Below, in pieces: positions 3,071 through 21,386 of a DNA stretch of 25,048 nucleotides. The stretch covers positions 1 to 25,048 of IMG/VR virus record IMGVR_UViG_3300009610_000085; one strand, 5' to 3'. A program made the translations under genes and the position numbers. The stretch's first letter is position 1. The number at the start of each line of letters is the position of its first letter. The notes under the pieces were generated by a model, which saw only the letters and a list, made by a program, of their open reading frames with translations, did not search any database and was not told the origin of the DNA. Origin of the DNA: a virus.

Positions 3071-3709
3071 TTACGCGCGCACGATCAGGGTAAGACCGCT
3101 AGATGTGGTTTTGTCAAGCCGCATCTTGCGCGGGAATCCGATGCCCCCAGCTCTCGATAGTTGGTCGGGGTGTATGGCCAGCGCAGCCTCCTTCCACCAT
3201 TTCCCCACGCAAATCTGGAATATGGTTGATGTCGCCACGCCGAAAGCGATGCCGATCCCTTTGTAGGTTTCCCCGCGGGATCGCATCGCCAAGATCGACG
3301 GAATATCGGCCTCGGTAAGTTTGCTGTTCGATACGCGGCTGCCGCGAACCTGGCGGCCATTCGCTATCGCATCCTTGGCATTTTCGGCCCGGGTTCCATA
3401 GTAGAGATTACCGGGGATATTTTTGCGCTTGTCGTCGTCTCGATGGAGCACCCACGCGCCAACTGGCTTTGGGCCAATAAAGGCCAGCGCCACCAGTTCG
3501 TGCACGCCGCATCGCTTTTGGCGCCCACTTCGGTGTAGCGTCACACGTAAATACCCCCACTTGTTGGGGTCTGGCGTGAGCCCCCGTCCCGCGAAACGTC
3601 GGGATTCGCCGCTGGCGCACGGGATCAGGCGCGGCAGAGAGCGGACATCCCCCTCCGCCGAGACCTCATATAACCCCTCATAGCCGGGGATCGGTCGCCA
3701 CTCCAACAT
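3071..3709 (-). CDS. NUMOD4/HNH homing-type endonuclease inserted behind the portal gene
   Basis: The N-terminus WRPIPGYEGLYEVSAEGDV is a NUMOD4 signature (residues 3-22). It is followed by an HNH_3-like core: GYLRVTLHRSG, VHELVALAFIG, WVLHRDDDKRKNIPGNLYYG, then AENAKDA (about 50-115). A helix-turn-helix-like segment follows (about 128-170, LTEADIPSILAMRSRG onward). This layout is that of free-standing phage homing endonucleases. The ATG overlaps the portal stop by one base (TGATG); a GTG one codon earlier is possible. The last 30 residues include RAGGIGFPRKM, which nearly matches the portal C-terminus RAGGISMPRKM, and suggests that the gene inserted at the portal's 3' end and captured the original tail. 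About 60 bases separate it from the scaffold gene. Confidence 0.87.
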   Translation of the reverse strand: MLEWRPIPGYEGLYEVSAEGDVRSLPRLIPCASGESRRFAGRGLTPDPNKWGYLRVTLHRSGRQKRCGVHELVALAFIGPKPVGAWVLHRDDDKRKNIPGNLYYGTRAENAKDAIANGRQVRGSRVSNSKLTEADIPSILAMRSRGETYKGIGIAFGVATSTIFQICVGKWWKEAALAIHPDQLSRAGGIGFPRKMRLDKTTSSGLTLIVRA

Positions 3710-5931
3710 CACATCTTCCTGGGCATCGAGATTCCCCCGGCCCTAGCCATCATATCGGGATGCACCATACCTGGAGGCCCCCGCATCTGCTGCGGGCCGG
3801 CCGGCTGCGAGCCGGGGGCCGGAGGTTGTGCGCCGGGCGGGCGGCCTGGGCCGGCGGGTCCTGGCAGGCCGGGGCGCGGCGGTTGGCCCTGCTGCTGCAT
3901 CGCCATCTGCTGCATCATCTGGGCCTGCACCTTGGCGGCGCGCTGGGCGAGGTGGGCCTGGAGGTGGACCCGCAATGTGCCGTGCGGGTCACCCGTTTCC
4001 TGGATCGCCCGCATGACCTCCGGGATGTGCTCCTCGTCATTGTCGAGCGGGTGCACCGGCACCTCGAACCCGGCCACCAGCATCTCGTTCTCGCGGTCCT
4101 GCGGAAAGGAGAGGCTGTTGCGCTGGTCGAACAGGATGGCTTCGCCCAGTTCCGGGCCAAAGGCGTTGGCGACCATCTGGCTGACCAGCTTGGAGAGGCG
4201 CAACTGGATGCCCTCGGCCTTGAGGCGCTGCTCCAATGCGGGATTCTGCAGCACATTGAGGAGCGCCGTGCCCTGCTGCGCCATCATCGCGTTCTGCCGT
4301 ACCTGCTCGCCGCCGCGCCAGACAAAGGTCAGGCCGTTGCGGTTCTGGAGGGGGCTGACCGACTGCATCTCGGCCTTACGGCCCTCCTCGCCGAACATCC
4401 GGATCAGGATATTGCGGTCGCGGAACTGGTAGTCGAGGTCGACGATCCAGGCGACCGCCTCGGTCAACACGTCCTCCAGGGTCGAGACACCCATCGCCGT
4501 CGTCAGCAGGTCGACCGCCTGCTCCTGGGCGATCTGCGCCTGGGTCGGCTGCGTCGTGCGCGAGGAGGAAGACGGCAGCATCGACGGGTTGACATTCAGG
4601 TTCTGGAATATCGCCTGTAGGGCCATTTGGACGCGAGTTGCCGCGCGAGGGGTAAGGTCGGGAAATGTGAGAAGCTCAACCGAACCGGGAGGCGCATCCC
4701 AGACGGCCCCGACGTTGTAAACAAGCGGACCGTCCACCTTCTCGGGGTCACGGGCAACGATGGGCGCCGCACTGAGTGTCGCCGCGTCGGCACCTTCGTT
4801 AACCGCATCGTTTGCTTCATATTGCAACGATTCCACGTACTTGATCGGGCTCGGCCCCTTGGCGGCGCCGGCCATCTTCTTCACCGGGCGCGAAATCAGC
4901 GGGCAGCGGTCGTTCCAGTAGGGGTTGCGCTTGGCGCCCAATTGGCAGCGCTTCGGGCCGAAGAAGATGCGGCAGAGGCGTTTGCGGCCATCCTCGGCGT
5001 AGCGCCCGGATTTGCCCAGCGGCAGCATCGCCCAGACTTCCCAGACCTGCGCCATCCGCCCCTCGTCGCGGATGCCGACCTGTTCCAGGATGTGGCGCTC
5101 GGTGTTGCGCTCCTCCTCGCCGACCCGGCCCATCTCGGCGACGAGCTTATCCGCCTCGTCCTCGCGGATGTTGCCGGCCCGCGCCATCGCCCGGATCTTG
5201 TCCTTGGACCAGCGGCGGACGATCGTGACGGAGCCGCCGCAGGACAGCGCCTCCTGCACCGTGTCGGCCGTCGGCGGCAATATCAGAACATCGGGGTCGT
5301 GCAACACCTCAAGGACCGGGTAGCCCTCGATGACGGTCTCCTCGGTGATGTCCTCGATTTCCTCGCCCGGCATTTCCTGGCCGGTTTCTGGGTCAATGGG
5401 GCCGTGTGTTTCACGTGAAACAATCTGCCGCTCGACCTCGGCCCAGTCCACGTAGAGGCTGTATTGCCCCTCGACCTGGCCGTTCCTGACCAGGGGTTCG
5501 GCGACCTGGGTCTTGACGCTACCCTGGCGGATATAGTGGTCGAGGATCGCGACGAGCGCGGATTCGGTGTCGCCGTCGGCGCTGATCGCCTGCACATAGC
5601 GGCCGCCCTGCGGGAACAATTGGTTAACATACCTCGTGACGATCGCCTCGATGGCGTCGTGGATGATCGGGAAATAGATGTTGGCGATACCGTTGTAATA
5701 ACGGTGTTGGTTCGCCTCGCAGTTATAGCAGTCCCAATAATCCTGGATGTCGTCGGAGCGGTCTTCCTGGTCGTCGAAGCCGCGTTTGATGTCATCGAAC
5801 AGATCGTCGAGATGGCCGCGGATGCCCGACTTCGGGGAGGCGCCGCCGCGCGGCTGCCGCCCCAGCAAATCCTGGTCGCGATCGACGGTCTCGCGTTCCG
5901 GCGGAAGCGCGATCGCGGGCAGGTCAGACAT
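3709..5931 (-). CDS. Portal protein
   Basis: At 740 residues, with an acidic N-terminus, a long mixed core and a disordered Pro/Gly/Gln-rich tail (about 675-740), this fits the large portal proteins that accompany N4-gp56-type capsids. Recognisable portal-like stretches are YFPIIHDAIEAIVTRYVNQL (88-107), the ring-core segment around PIKYVESLQYEANDAVNEG, and the RTTQPTQAQIAQEQAVDLL helix. The protein would form the dodecameric vertex through which TerL packages DNA. No good Shine-Dalgarno precedes the ATG, yet no better start is near. A perfect parS-like palindrome lies in the codons for residues 170-176, in what looks like a variable loop. Identity as portal is inferred from size, position between TerL and scaffold, and composition. 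Confidence 0.85.
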   Translation of the reverse strand: MSDLPAIALPPERETVDRDQDLLGRQPRGGASPKSGIRGHLDDLFDDIKRGFDDQEDRSDDIQDYWDCYNCEANQHRYYNGIANIYFPIIHDAIEAIVTRYVNQLFPQGGRYVQAISADGDTESALVAILDHYIRQGSVKTQVAEPLVRNGQVEGQYSLYVDWAEVERQIVSRETHGPIDPETGQEMPGEEIEDITEETVIEGYPVLEVLHDPDVLILPPTADTVQEALSCGGSVTIVRRWSKDKIRAMARAGNIREDEADKLVAEMGRVGEEERNTERHILEQVGIRDEGRMAQVWEVWAMLPLGKSGRYAEDGRKRLCRIFFGPKRCQLGAKRNPYWNDRCPLISRPVKKMAGAAKGPSPIKYVESLQYEANDAVNEGADAATLSAAPIVARDPEKVDGPLVYNVGAVWDAPPGSVELLTFPDLTPRAATRVQMALQAIFQNLNVNPSMLPSSSSRTTQPTQAQIAQEQAVDLLTTAMGVSTLEDVLTEAVAWIVDLDYQFRDRNILIRMFGEEGRKAEMQSVSPLQNRNGLTFVWRGGEQVRQNAMMAQQGTALLNVLQNPALEQRLKAEGIQLRLSKLVSQMVANAFGPELGEAILFDQRNSLSFPQDRENEMLVAGFEVPVHPLDNDEEHIPEVMRAIQETGDPHGTLRVHLQAHLAQRAAKVQAQMMQQMAMQQQGQPPRPGLPGPAGPGRPPGAQPPAPGSQPAGPQQMRGPPGMVHPDMMARAGGISMPRKM
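5407..5422. other. parS-like ParB binding palindrome inside the portal gene
   Basis: The sequence TGTTTCACGTGAAACA is a perfect 16-bp palindrome identical to the canonical chromosomal parS site bound by ParB/Spo0J proteins across bacteria. It lies within coding sequence for IVSRET of the portal. No parA or parB gene is in the window, so if it works it would use the host ParB or one encoded elsewhere on the element. Sequence identity is seen directly; function is inferred. Confidence 0.75.
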
Positions 5932-6730: not shown

Positions 6731-7065
6731 CCATACCAGGGCCAGCCGCGCCACACCATGCCTACCCAGAGCCTGCCATGCCGCTCCGCACCCCCGCAGG
6801 CCGCGCCATGCCGACGCCCGCCTGACCACACCTAGCCATTCCGAGCCGCCCCACGGCGTGCCGAATCCGACCTAACCCTGCCGCACCACACCAGGCCCCC
6901 CCGAGCCGTACCGAGACAGACCGCGCCGCGGCCAGCCGCTCCACACCTCACCCGTCCATGCCGGGCATTGCTGCCCCGTACCATGCCGGACCATGCCACC
7001 CCCGGCCATAGCTAACCGAGCCCTGCCATCCCAAGCCGCTCCCTGCCGGACCTATCCCTCGCACA
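6731..7065. repeat. Pentamer array A: about 67 phased CCNNN units
   Basis: Read in steps of five from 6731, nearly every unit is CCNNN (for example ccatg, ccgag, ccaca, cctag). By hand count 55 of 67 units start CC, position 1 is C in 57 and position 2 is C in 65, while positions 3-5 vary freely. No phase slip occurs over about 335 bp. On the leftward coding strand the unit reads NNNGG. The block fills the gap between the RAMP-like gene and the next gene, covers the last three or four codons of the former, and may continue with a one-base slip to about 6705. Reading frames through it encode only G/A/R-rich low-complexity peptide and are not genes. Confidence 0.92.
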
Positions 7066-7756
7066 CCCGATAGGAGACAACGGCGAACCTTCCGTAAGTC
7101 GGCCGGAAGTCGCCGAGACCACCTATTCTACCAGCGGTGGCAATAACCTCATTTAATACTTGCGGCGAGATGTATTCTGGCAGGGTAACCATAAGGAGAA
7201 AAGTCGCGCTCCAACCAACTTTCATAGCTGGGCGAGTCCGATTGATGCCTGATCTCTGAACGACGACTCTTCTTCTGTCTTCATAATCCCACCCGGTCGC
7301 CGCGCCACACCCTGCCTCACCGTGGCTTGCCTTGCCGCCGCTTGCCGAGCCCCGGCTTGCCGCAGAATACATCGGAGCCAAAGGGGTCAATGACACCACC
7401 CCAGCCTTGAACAGGTCCATCGCAGATTTTCTTGGAGAGCGCGGATCTTGGCGAAATTTCGCCGCCCCGACTATAGCCCCGCGCAGATATTCTCCAGGCA
7501 AACAAATCTCTCCCGCGTCGTTCCGATAAACATAGCTTTCGATATTATCGCTCTTTTTTGCAGCGCTCCCCTTGGCCGCTTTCGCCTTTTCGTCCACCGC
7601 CTCCGGGTTCCAGCGGTGGAACAGGATATCGGCCGAACCCTCAATTCTGACCTCAGCCGTGAACGGTTCCAAAAAGGCAATAGCCTCGTCAGATCCATTA
7701 GTTGGAACATCGCCGCCAATTCTGACGACTTCTGCAGTAGCCTTACTTCTCGCCAT
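7052..7756 (-). CDS. RAMP/Cas7-like phage protein of unknown function, interrupted in frame by pentamer repeats
   Basis: The 234-residue product has features reminiscent of RAMP (Cas7/Cas6-type) folds. It opens with a beta strand AEVRIEGSADILFHRW (35-49), then YVYRNDAGEICLPGEYLRGAI (75-95) with a following helix. A strand/Arg-rich block DYEDRRRVVVQRSGI (157-171) and RTRPAMKVGWSATFLLMV come next, and the C-terminal glycine loop is GRIGGLGDFRPTYGRFAV (209-226), resembling the G-rich loop of RAMPs. Residues 131-152 are encoded by 13 pentamer units and look like an insertion in a loop. GGGGAG stands nine bases ahead of the ATG. Array blocks flank the gene on both sides. The RAMP link is inference from motif shape; no catalytic residues can be assigned. 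Confidence 0.8.
   Translation of the reverse strand: MARSKATAEVVRIGGDVPTNGSDEAIAFLEPFTAEVRIEGSADILFHRWNPEAVDEKAKAAKGSAAKKSDNIESYVYRNDAGEICLPGEYLRGAIVGAAKFRQDPRSPRKSAMDLFKAGVVSLTPLAPMYSAASRGSASGGKASHGEAGCGAATGWDYEDRRRVVVQRSGINRTRPAMKVGWSATFLLMVTLPEYISPQVLNEVIATAGRIGGLGDFRPTYGRFAVVSYRVCEG
7300..7364. repeat. Pentamer array B: 13 units inside a coding sequence
   Basis: Thirteen consecutive five-base units (ccgcg, ccaca, ccctg, cctca, ccgtg, gcttg and so on) occupy the middle of the RAMP-like gene. Ten begin CC and three GC; position 2 is C in all. The reading frame is kept, giving residues S131-A152, low-complexity Ser/Gly/Ala. The block is the same repeat type as the arrays on either side of the gene. 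Confidence 0.88.
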
Positions 7757-7765
7757 AACAGTCTC

Positions 7766-7833
7766 CCCGCTCCGGTCCCATCACGCCCGGAGCGCTATGC
7801 ACAGGGGTTGCGTAAAGCAACAACCGGAGCGGG
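7766..7833 (-). promoter_or_regulatory. Structured leader of the RAMP-like gene
   Basis: In the leftward transcript an 11-bp perfect inverted repeat (CCCGCTCCGGT with ACCGGAGCGGG, arms at 7823-7833 and 7766-7776) encloses about 46 bases. These contain a smaller stem, GTTGC with GCAAC (7817-7821 and 7807-7811). The 3' arm ends in the GGGGAG ribosome site, nine bases from the ATG. This suggests control of translation by the leader fold, or an RNA element in its own right. Confidence 0.6.
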
Positions 7834-7881
7834 AAGCTCAAGATTGGTTGTTGCGCTCTCTCGCGGTGATGGCCGCGAAAA

Positions 7882-7961
7882 CCTTACCTAGCCGAACCGA
7901 TCCAGGCCTAAGCGGACCAAAGCCGCCCTAGCCAAACCACAGCGCGCCATGGCCCAGCCAT
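7882..7961. repeat. Pentamer array C: 16 units upstream of the RAMP-like gene
   Basis: Sixteen phased units run from cctta and cctag to gccat. Eleven start CC and five GC; position 2 is always C. It lies in the 225-base gap between the TerL stop and the RAMP-like gene, the rest of which holds the structured leader. No credible gene is encoded in it. Confidence 0.88.
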
Positions 7962-18278: not shown

Positions 18279-18530
18279 TCAGCGCTTGAAGAACCGTTGA
18301 GCAGCCGCCGCGGAGGCCTCATCGTACCACGATCTGTCGGGATCAATGGGCGATGCGGCTTCGTCGGCATTGCCCAGAAAGGTTCGCCGCCAGGCATAAT
18401 CGTATGCGTGGTATTGCCAGCGCTCAGTATCGGTCAGACCGGAATAACTCCGGTTCCGCAGGCTTTTGCGAATGCCGCTGTAATGCGCCTTGCTGGGAAA
18501 CCCGATCATTGTCACGTCCGATGGCGGCAT
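18279..18530 (-). CDS. Small protein overlapping the initiator gene
   Basis: I place this 83-residue gene at the ATG with GGAGA six bases upstream. It reads MPPSDVTMIGFPSKAHYSGI and is rich in Tyr, Trp and Arg (YSGLTDTERWQYHAYDYAWR), ending DEASAAAAQRFFKR. The first 107 bases overlap the end of the initiator gene in another frame, so the two are probably coupled. It lies where lambdoid phages carry a partner of the initiator, but no helicase-loader motif is visible. Confidence 0.65.
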   Translation of the reverse strand: MPPSDVTMIGFPSKAHYSGIRKSLRNRSYSGLTDTERWQYHAYDYAWRRTFLGNADEAASPIDPDRSWYDEASAAAAQRFFKR

Positions 18531-19209
18531 TGCCGTTCTCCAGTCTTGGTGGTGGTGAGGTCGGCTTGATGCGCCGCTGCTCGCTGTCGCCAAAATCATC
18601 GAGCCAGCGCTTCTGATTGAGCCATGTTGCCGGATGGCACCAGTCCCGGTCTTCGGGCTTGTTGGCGATATAGCGGGAAACTCCCGCAATCATGTCGCCG
18701 GCACTGGCTTGCTTACAGGCCCTTGCCCAAGCCCTCTCGGCCGCCCCCTTCCCGATCTTCGCCGGATAGCCTTCCCACCATTTTTCGAAGTCCGTAAGCG
18801 TCGTCCCCCGGCGGGGGACTACAGGGGGAGATTCCTTGAAGGTTCTAAGTGAAGGTTCTGTGTGATCGTCCGTCACGTGCCCGAGTGATCGTCCGTCAGG
18901 TGCCGAGTGATCTTTGGTCACGTGATCTTGGGTCACATGTGATCCTGCGTCACACTGCACAAAATATACATTTGAGTGTTGCCCATCCCTGTCGGCCCTG
19001 TGTTCGACCCGGAGCATTCCGGCGCTGACCAGCTTTTTTATCTGCCGGTTGACCGTCTCGCGGACGATGCCGCACCGCTTGGCTAGATGGGTTTGCGAGG
19101 GCCAGCACTTGCCGTCCATGTCGGCCATGTCGGCCAGGGCCAGCAGCACGATCTTTTCGGCGCAGGGGAGATCCTGCTCGAATGCCCAGCTGAGCAATTT
19201 AAGGCTCAT
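18424..19209 (-). CDS. Phage replication initiator, O/DnaT-like, with HTH domain
   Basis: The 261-residue product has a winged HTH of the helix_turn_helix_36 type at residues about 18-76 (EKIVLLALADMADMDGKCWP, then SQTHLAKRCGIVRETVNRQI). A polar linker (about 85-130) and a C-terminal domain with FEKWWEGYPAKIGKGAAERA and HPATWLNQKRWLDD follow, typical of phage replication proteins. It would bind the origin and recruit the helicase loader. The linker is encoded by five repeated dyads and an AT-rich patch, so the origin appears to lie within the gene as in lambda O. The ATG overlaps the stop of the small HTH gene upstream. Confidence 0.88.
   Translation of the reverse strand: MSLKLLSWAFEQDLPCAEKIVLLALADMADMDGKCWPSQTHLAKRCGIVRETVNRQIKKLVSAGMLRVEHRADRDGQHSNVYFVQCDAGSHVTQDHVTKDHSAPDGRSLGHVTDDHTEPSLRTFKESPPVVPRRGTTLTDFEKWWEGYPAKIGKGAAERAWARACKQASAGDMIAGVSRYIANKPEDRDWCHPATWLNQKRWLDDFGDSEQRRIKPTSPPPRLENGNAAIGRDNDRVSQQGALQRHSQKPAEPELFRSDRY
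18862..18976. other. Candidate replication origin: five iterons plus AT-rich segment
   Basis: Five 15-bp units of the form GTGATCNNNNGTCAC (dyad GTGA-N7-TCAC, one ending TCAG) start at 18862, 18885, 18907, 18922 and 18939. They are followed by an AT-rich stretch (aaaatatacattt, 18961-18973). They lie inside the initiator gene and encode its linker. The arrangement matches lambda ori, where O-binding iterons lie in gene O beside an AT-rich unwinding region. Function is inferred. Confidence 0.7.
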
Positions 19210-19451
19210 GACAGTTCTTTCCACCAGCGGTCCAGGAGGGAGCGGCGCGGCTTGCGCTCGCCGCAGCGGTAGCGCGCCAGCATGTGCGGGCAGACCCCGA
19301 GCCGGCGCGCCATGACCTTCAGCGGGATTGCGCGCTTGCGGTGCGCCAGGCGCAACGCCTCGCGTTCCCCGGCCGAGAGCACGACGAGGGGATCAGCCGG
19401 CGGCTTGATAACGCTGGGGTCTGGTGCTAAATGCAGCGGCGCTGCCGCCAT
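19206..19451 (-). CDS. Small HTH DNA-binding protein
   Basis: An 81-residue protein in which SAGEREALRLAHRKRAIPLK (26-45) then VMARRLGVCPHMLARYRCGE (46-65) forms a helix-turn-helix of the Cro/XRE or resolvase type: the G-V-x-x-x-M-L-x-R-Y-R turn is clear. A GGAG precedes the ATG. Its last bases overlap the initiator start. Within the replication operon it may be a regulator or an origin-binding helper. Confidence 0.8.
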   Translation of the reverse strand: MAAAPLHLAPDPSVIKPPADPLVVLSAGEREALRLAHRKRAIPLKVMARRLGVCPHMLARYRCGERKPRRSLLDRWWKELS

Positions 19452-20736: not shown

Positions 20737-20910
20737 ATGTCACAGCTTGAAGAAGTCGCGATGCGCCACGCCAAGGCGCTGGGCTACGCGGAGGCAATGC
20801 TGGTCGCCATCGAGGTCTTGGCGGACGACCCGGTGCGGGTGCGCGCGGCGGTCGCCGAGGCCAAGGCCGAGATCGCGCGGATTTGCGCGGGCGCCGAGGT
20901 GCCGAAATGA
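20737..20910 (+). CDS. Small helical protein, first of the rightward operon
   Basis: A 57-residue helical protein, MSQLEEVAMRHAKALGYAEA onward, ends AEIARICAGAEVPK. The start follows GGGAG in the conserved leader. The stop overlaps the next gene (ATGA). The function is unknown; it is the promoter-proximal gene of the recombination operon and could be a small regulator. Confidence 0.78.
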   Translation: MSQLEEVAMRHAKALGYAEAMLVAIEVLADDPVRVRAAVAEAKAEIARICAGAEVPK

Positions 20911-21386
20911 GCGAGCCCCGACTAACTGGGCGACAGCAAGAGTTTCTCCCGCGATTTGAGGCTGGGTGCGAACCCGAGCCGAACAGCGGCTGCTGGATTT
21001 GGCTAGGGCACCTCACGCCGAAGGGTTATGGCCGTATCCAGTGGGGCGGGACCGAAATCTATGTCCACCGCGCCGCTTGGTTGTTCTTTCGGGGGCCGAT
21101 AGGCGATGGTCTGGAGATTGACCACCTGTGTCGGATGCGCTGTTGCGTCAACCCGGATCACCTGGAGCCGGTGACGCACGCCGATAATGTCAGGCGCAGC
21201 GACGCTGGGAAGCTTCTGCGCGCCAGGATGCTGGCCAAGGATTCTTGCCCAAACGGACACCCCTACGCCGGCTCTCGGATCGATGCTAACGGGCACCGAG
21301 TCTGCTACCAGTGCCAAAAGGCAAAGTGGACAAAAAGGAACGCCCAAATCTCCGAAAAGCGGAGGCTCGCGCGATGCTCGGCCTAA
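20907..21386 (+). CDS. HNH endonuclease
   Basis: The 159-residue protein has the phage HNH pattern GCWIWLGHLTPKGYGRIQWG, then HRAAWLFFRGPIGDGLEIDH, then CRMRCCVNPDHLEPVTHADN. A C-terminal cysteine group follows (CPNGHPYAG and CYQCQKAKW), probably a second zinc site. The histidines and Asn of the HNH core are intact. It starts within the previous stop and ends overlapping the exonuclease gene. It may be a homing-type nuclease or a packaging-type HNH; position in the recombination operon favours the former. Confidence 0.9.
   Translation: MSEPRLTGRQQEFLPRFEAGCEPEPNSGCWIWLGHLTPKGYGRIQWGGTEIYVHRAAWLFFRGPIGDGLEIDHLCRMRCCVNPDHLEPVTHADNVRRSDAGKLLRARMLAKDSCPNGHPYAGSRIDANGHRVCYQCQKAKWTKRNAQISEKRRLARCSA

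Follow-up and report, generated by a model that had tools for sequence, protein, structure and literature searches.

A phage-borne locus with VIPR features whose vipr gene contains an in-frame YNNGG array matching the vipr genes of other phages

The stretch of DNA analysed here (the window, 25,048 nucleotides) is a virus contig whose head and packaging operon lies on the minus strand. Members of this operon include TerL, vipr, the major head protein gene and, as suggested by position only for these two, a long ORF as the portal gene and a scaffold-like gene. The vipr product contains GGLGDFRPTYGRF. Three blocks of repeats with a 5-nt period lie around and within vipr (Table 1) and read GGYNN on the minus strand, that is, as arrays of YNNGG as found in vrRNAs. 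The first module of array A is followed by GGGCA-GCAA-TGCCC, which on inspection may form a hairpin, and a search of Rfam gave no match anywhere in the window.

Table 1. Features of the vipr locus, in coordinates of the window
Feature	Position	Strand	Evidence
vipr (Vipr protein, RAMP/Cas7-like, 234 aa; phrog_4652)	7052..7756	-	phrog_4652 E=1.4e-14, Vipr homology, AlphaFold model
Array A, 68 consecutive GGYNN units, downstream of vipr, overlaps vipr stop codon	6728..7067	-	
Array A first module, 16 units up to GGTAC GGGGC; candidate guide	6973..7052	-	
Array B, 13 GGYNN units in frame inside the vipr ORF, codes for a predicted disordered loop at ~aa 130-151	7297..7361	-	
Guide part of array B, ten units, NN pairs equal to the first two bases of rival vipr codons	7317..7366	-	
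Own-vipr site corresponding to guide B (AKGSAAKKSD), 15/20 bases match	7547..7576	-	
3' tail of array-C vrRNA / vipr 5' leader, conserved pseudoknot	7757..7883	-	
Array C, 14 GGYNN units upstream of vipr, last unit GGTTT	7879..7948	-	

The only family match of the vipr product is phrog_4652, whose function is unknown; Pfam, NCBIfam and PADLOC hold no family for it or its relatives. Viral and genome contigs yielded 87 loci with a homologue, and we aligned the 64 distinct homologue sequences that lack the array-B insert (alignment A2). The profile of this alignment matches a single PDB sequence, 36pp_D, deposited as “SUSP1 Vipr protein” (E=5.9e-12), and it also finds the SUSP1 gene at 28474-29061 (E=4.4e-15; hhalign probability 98.3%). 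A TIGR03986 RAMP match in one homologue was set aside (E=0.11).

AlphaFold modelling of A2 (pLDDT 87.3) yielded a structure whose best matches are all Cas7/Csm3-type backbone subunits of CRISPR systems of type VII and type III-A (Z 12.3, rmsd 4.4, 164 residues), and the model of the window's own Vipr (pLDDT 83.5) likewise matches Csm3/Cas7 chains (Z 12.2, rmsd 3.9 over 170). The loop encoded by array B is predicted to be disordered in the latter model, with pLDDT below 50 at residues 136-146, and the glycine-loop residues of GDFRPTYGRF are mostly invariant across the 64 sequences. The product is thus, to judge from its model, a small RAMP with an RRM core and a glycine loop. An earlier note on this DNA had proposed a RAMP/Cas7-like protein, and this holds on two grounds, the fold (Z ~12) and the homology to SUSP1 Vipr; the fold search against RAMP proteins returned Cas7/Csm3 and no different fold. 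The residue ranges that the note had marked out for the fold, 30-130 and 153-230, are about right, as the insert occupies approximately residues 130-151, and its span of 7052-7961 includes the vipr ORF and also takes in array C.

VIPR systems, as described in a 2026 preprint, pair a RAMP protein of phages, named Vipr, with the vrRNAs to which it binds; these comprise 9-16 YNNGG repeats and have a structured 3' tail (PMC13142463). Double-stranded DNA is read by the NN pairs, with one target base skipped per repeat, and transcription is repressed; the systems serve largely in inter-phage conflicts (PMC13142463). Seven types are distinguished, of which SUSP1 represents type II, with a vrRNA tail that forms a pseudoknot in the SUSP1 clade, and the accessory gene vap is typical of VIPR rather than defining (PMC13142463). 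We consider it very probable that the locus in the window is a phage-borne VIPR system, and since the preprint makes this kind of system already known, the suggestion that it might be undescribed falls. VIPR, described only in 2026, has been proposed as an ancestor of CRISPR.

The in-phase GG of all three arrays exceeds that of Markov shuffles, overwhelmingly so for array A, where it is present in 56 of 68 units (mean 20 and maximum 30 in 2000 shuffles). Array B has GG in 10 of 13 units (shuffle mean 4.4, maximum 9) and array C in 11 of 14 (mean 4.1, maximum 10). Set against the 9-16 repeats per vrRNA of known VIPR systems, C and B have 14 and 13 repeats and A is longer, at 68, and the arrays flank vipr as they do there. 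Across the arrays of the homologous loci, column entropies of 0.33 and 0.83 bits for the two G positions, 1.45 for Y, and 1.98 and 1.99 for the two N positions show that GGY is constant and NN is free.

Arrays were found within 1 kb of vipr in 83 of the 87 homologous loci, which are not independent of one another and were chosen by homology to the window's Vipr. Almost all array segments (239/245) lie on the vipr strand. The 219 kb around vipr contain 245 segments, whereas only 6 occur in the other 557 kb. The link between protein and pentamer array that the earlier note had drawn is therefore well founded, and array-less homologues do not occur regularly: the four loci concerned include one fragment of 924 bases and two loci with the same protein. 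Run on SUSP1 as a positive control, the array detector recovered exactly the published set, with one array upstream of vipr and three downstream (PMC13142463); reversed sequence was dropped as a control, since the GG of a YNNGG array recurs at 5-nt intervals in either direction. Two loci, L069 and L081, encode Vipr homologues and have no detectable YNNGG array within 1 kb; their arrays may lie elsewhere or be degenerate. Another locus, L018:3565-6483, carries exceptionally long unbroken YNNGG arrays of 83, 115, 98 and 54 units around one vipr.

The segment between array C and the vipr start is conserved in about ten other loci, and it can be folded into a pseudoknotted tail in which 99.2% of cells are paired across nine loci, with compensatory changes at 11 pairs. 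Sliding one side by 1-3 bases as a control lowers pairing to 40-53%. Array C thus has a structured 3' tail like that of other vrRNAs, and no comparable tail was seen after array A or array B. As the 3' stem spans the purine-rich stretch ahead of the vipr start codon, the tail may also affect translation of vipr.

The system of Escherichia phage SUSP1 is the closest described counterpart, sharing a Vipr homologue, carriage by a phage, same-strand YNNGG arrays upstream and downstream of vipr, a pseudoknotted tail, and one-nucleotide-skip matching to competing mobile elements. It differs in that the proteins are distant (31% identity over 166 aligned columns by hhalign), the window locus has no vap1, array A continues for 68 units with no obvious tail separating its modules, and array B lies inside the vipr ORF. 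No conserved neighbour that could be a vap gene was seen within 2.8 kb of vipr in 88 loci, only shadow ORFs and lineage-specific genes, and this absence suggests that the Vipr belongs to the type without vap. Phage DSL-LC04 (OR003939; L092:12001-12618) has a Vipr that is 52% identical, with three YNNGG arrays upstream, but its gene lacks an internal array. The DSL-LC04 gene has been deposited as a “helix-turn-helix transcriptional regulator”, an annotation that is probably wrong.

A feature that the earlier note had missed is that array B is itself readable as a guide against the vipr genes of other phages. Its NN pairs, GC AA GG TC AA GC AA AA AC GA, are the first two bases of the codons for A K G S K A K K T D in those genes, in frame and with the wobble base skipped, and AKGSKAKKTD is a conserved Vipr motif. 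Against 74 vipr homologues outside its own clade, ten consecutive repeats reach 20/20 at a skip of one, while skips of 0, 2 and 3 give 15, 14 and 16 of 20, and 1000 shuffles of the guide reach at most 18 of 20. An unbiased search for these 20 bases through 2.9 million viral contigs returned 17 matches, of which 16 fell in vipr genes. The single match outside vipr is AT-rich, and composition therefore matters for the chance estimate; 16-base patterns from arrays A and C gave 2-15 matches, from which approximately 0.01-0.06 occurrences are expected by chance for 20 bases.

Array B thus displays the noncontiguous, one-nucleotide-skip matching of VIPR, and by this sequence evidence the code reported in the preprint is one that holds in a distant clade of phages. 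The evidence is independent of the published work and extends the skip code to uncultured phages that form a large, distant clade and lack vap; it also points to guides directed against the effector genes of rivals. The window's own vipr matches guide B at 15 of 20 bases, with two adjacent repeats wholly mismatched. This is compatible with self-sparing, though a score of 15/20 is ordinary among homologues, 39 of 88 of which score 15 or less, and is not unusually low.

The mechanism that we propose follows the preprint's experiments on other members. Vipr would bind vrRNAs made from the YNNGG arrays that flank its gene, the NN of each repeat in turn would pair with double-stranded DNA at two of every three positions, and guide-bound Vipr would block transcription of the target. 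Because array B lies in frame within the vipr ORF, one stretch could both encode a tolerated loop of Vipr and spell a guide against rival vipr. Its most likely use would be in a conflict of VIPR against VIPR, in which the rival effector gene is silenced and five mismatches largely protect the phage's own copy. On this proposal, array-B RNA would be processed, loaded and active. We hold only tentatively, as quite possible, the full reading in which the embedded array is functional, with the vipr mRNA as guide source and an NN code laid over the loop codons that would silence rival vipr at conserved codons, skipping the wobble base. If array B works in this way, the same DNA is at once protein code and guide code; we know of no precedent for such an overlap in RNA-guided systems, and a guide-bearing effector gene is apparently a new feature.

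The distribution of the insert bears on its history. The earlier note had described a gene flanked by arrays A and C and interrupted by B; the flanking arrays are confirmed, and array B lies within the gene here as well as in the close relatives L005-L009 and in L021. Apart from L010 and L011, which have a shorter version, the other homologues lack it, with SLTPLAS joined directly to WDYED, and among these is L012, which is 73% identical in its best segment. Array B looks like a single acquisition, with the frame always kept.

To a VIPR locus with a working embedded array we must oppose, at close to an even chance, a VIPR locus in which array B is a relic. It would once have been an ordinary guide against vipr, would have entered the gene by recombination and would now persist as a neutral loop, no longer processed. 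A working guide is made less likely by the position of array B in a coding region and by its want of a recognisable tail. The missing tail, the 3 of 13 units without GG and the predicted disorder of the encoded insert agree with a relic, as does the version in L010 and L011, which is shorter by 30 bases, in frame, and has lost the guide core yet kept the loop. An old remnant should, however, lose the GGY frame and the match to its target, whereas all ten target-matching units are intact in the window and in L008, and a single base differs in each of L005, L006, L007 and L009.

Two readings that depart from VIPR altogether fare far worse. It is very improbable that the gene is an orphan phage RAMP beside an unrelated selfish or simple-sequence 5-nt expansion: the arrays do resemble repeat expansions, one of which entered a gene, but 83/87 homologues have same-strand arrays in which GGY is fixed and NN varies freely, the match of array B to rival vipr codons emerges at a skip of one only, and array C has a conserved tail. 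Least probable is class 1 CRISPR-Cas in some degenerate or unusual form, for although Cas7/Csm3 proteins (type III-A, type VII backbone) share the RRM-type RAMP fold and glycine-rich loop and give the best fold matches (Z ~12), identity is 10-14%, the window has no CRISPR repeats, cas operon or contiguous spacer, its repeats are of 5 nt with the guide information in NN pairs, and the sequence match is to Vipr. A tandem-repeat scan of the window, an incomplete genome whose remaining part may carry cas genes, found no CRISPR repeat-spacer array, and PADLOC matched 0 of the 64 homologues.

Returning to VIPR, we matched the NN strings of all arrays to ~1.6 Mb (both strands) of the collected loci with arrays masked. 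Three guides scored above shuffles, array B and arrays in L007 and L027, and all of them aim at the vipr of other phages; the remaining arrays gave target matches at shuffle level in this small set. Matches counted place by place include many repeats of one homologous target, and in the fairer count only vipr-directed guides rise above shuffles. The guide at L007:2998-3147 matches at 22/22, and that at L027:5636-5710 at up to 21/22, the antisense of the vipr glycine-loop codons in other phages (LADFRPTYGRF, GDFRPTYGRF). These matches suggest that anti-vipr guides may be common.

Array C and most of array A gave no convincing target in the viral contig scans with 16 fixed bases: the 2-15 matches per pattern look like chance, because they do not extend. 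The first module of array A matches one phage contig, L130, at 28/32 bases and the homologous contig L144 at 21/32, which makes L130 a suggestive candidate target for this module.

Elsewhere in the window, three HNH-type endonuclease genes are present, at 190-828 (+; Endonuclease_7), 3071-3712 (-; NUMOD4+HNH_3) and 20883-21386 (+; HNH_3); the second, which lies inside the head operon, resembles a homing endonuclease gene. A gene for a winged-helix (HTH_36) protein at 18424-19224 (-) contains short tandem repeats at 18862-18954, GATCACGTGAC-like and with periods of 15 and 22. These may be origin iterons inside an initiator gene, comparable to the iterons inside the initiator gene O of lambda.
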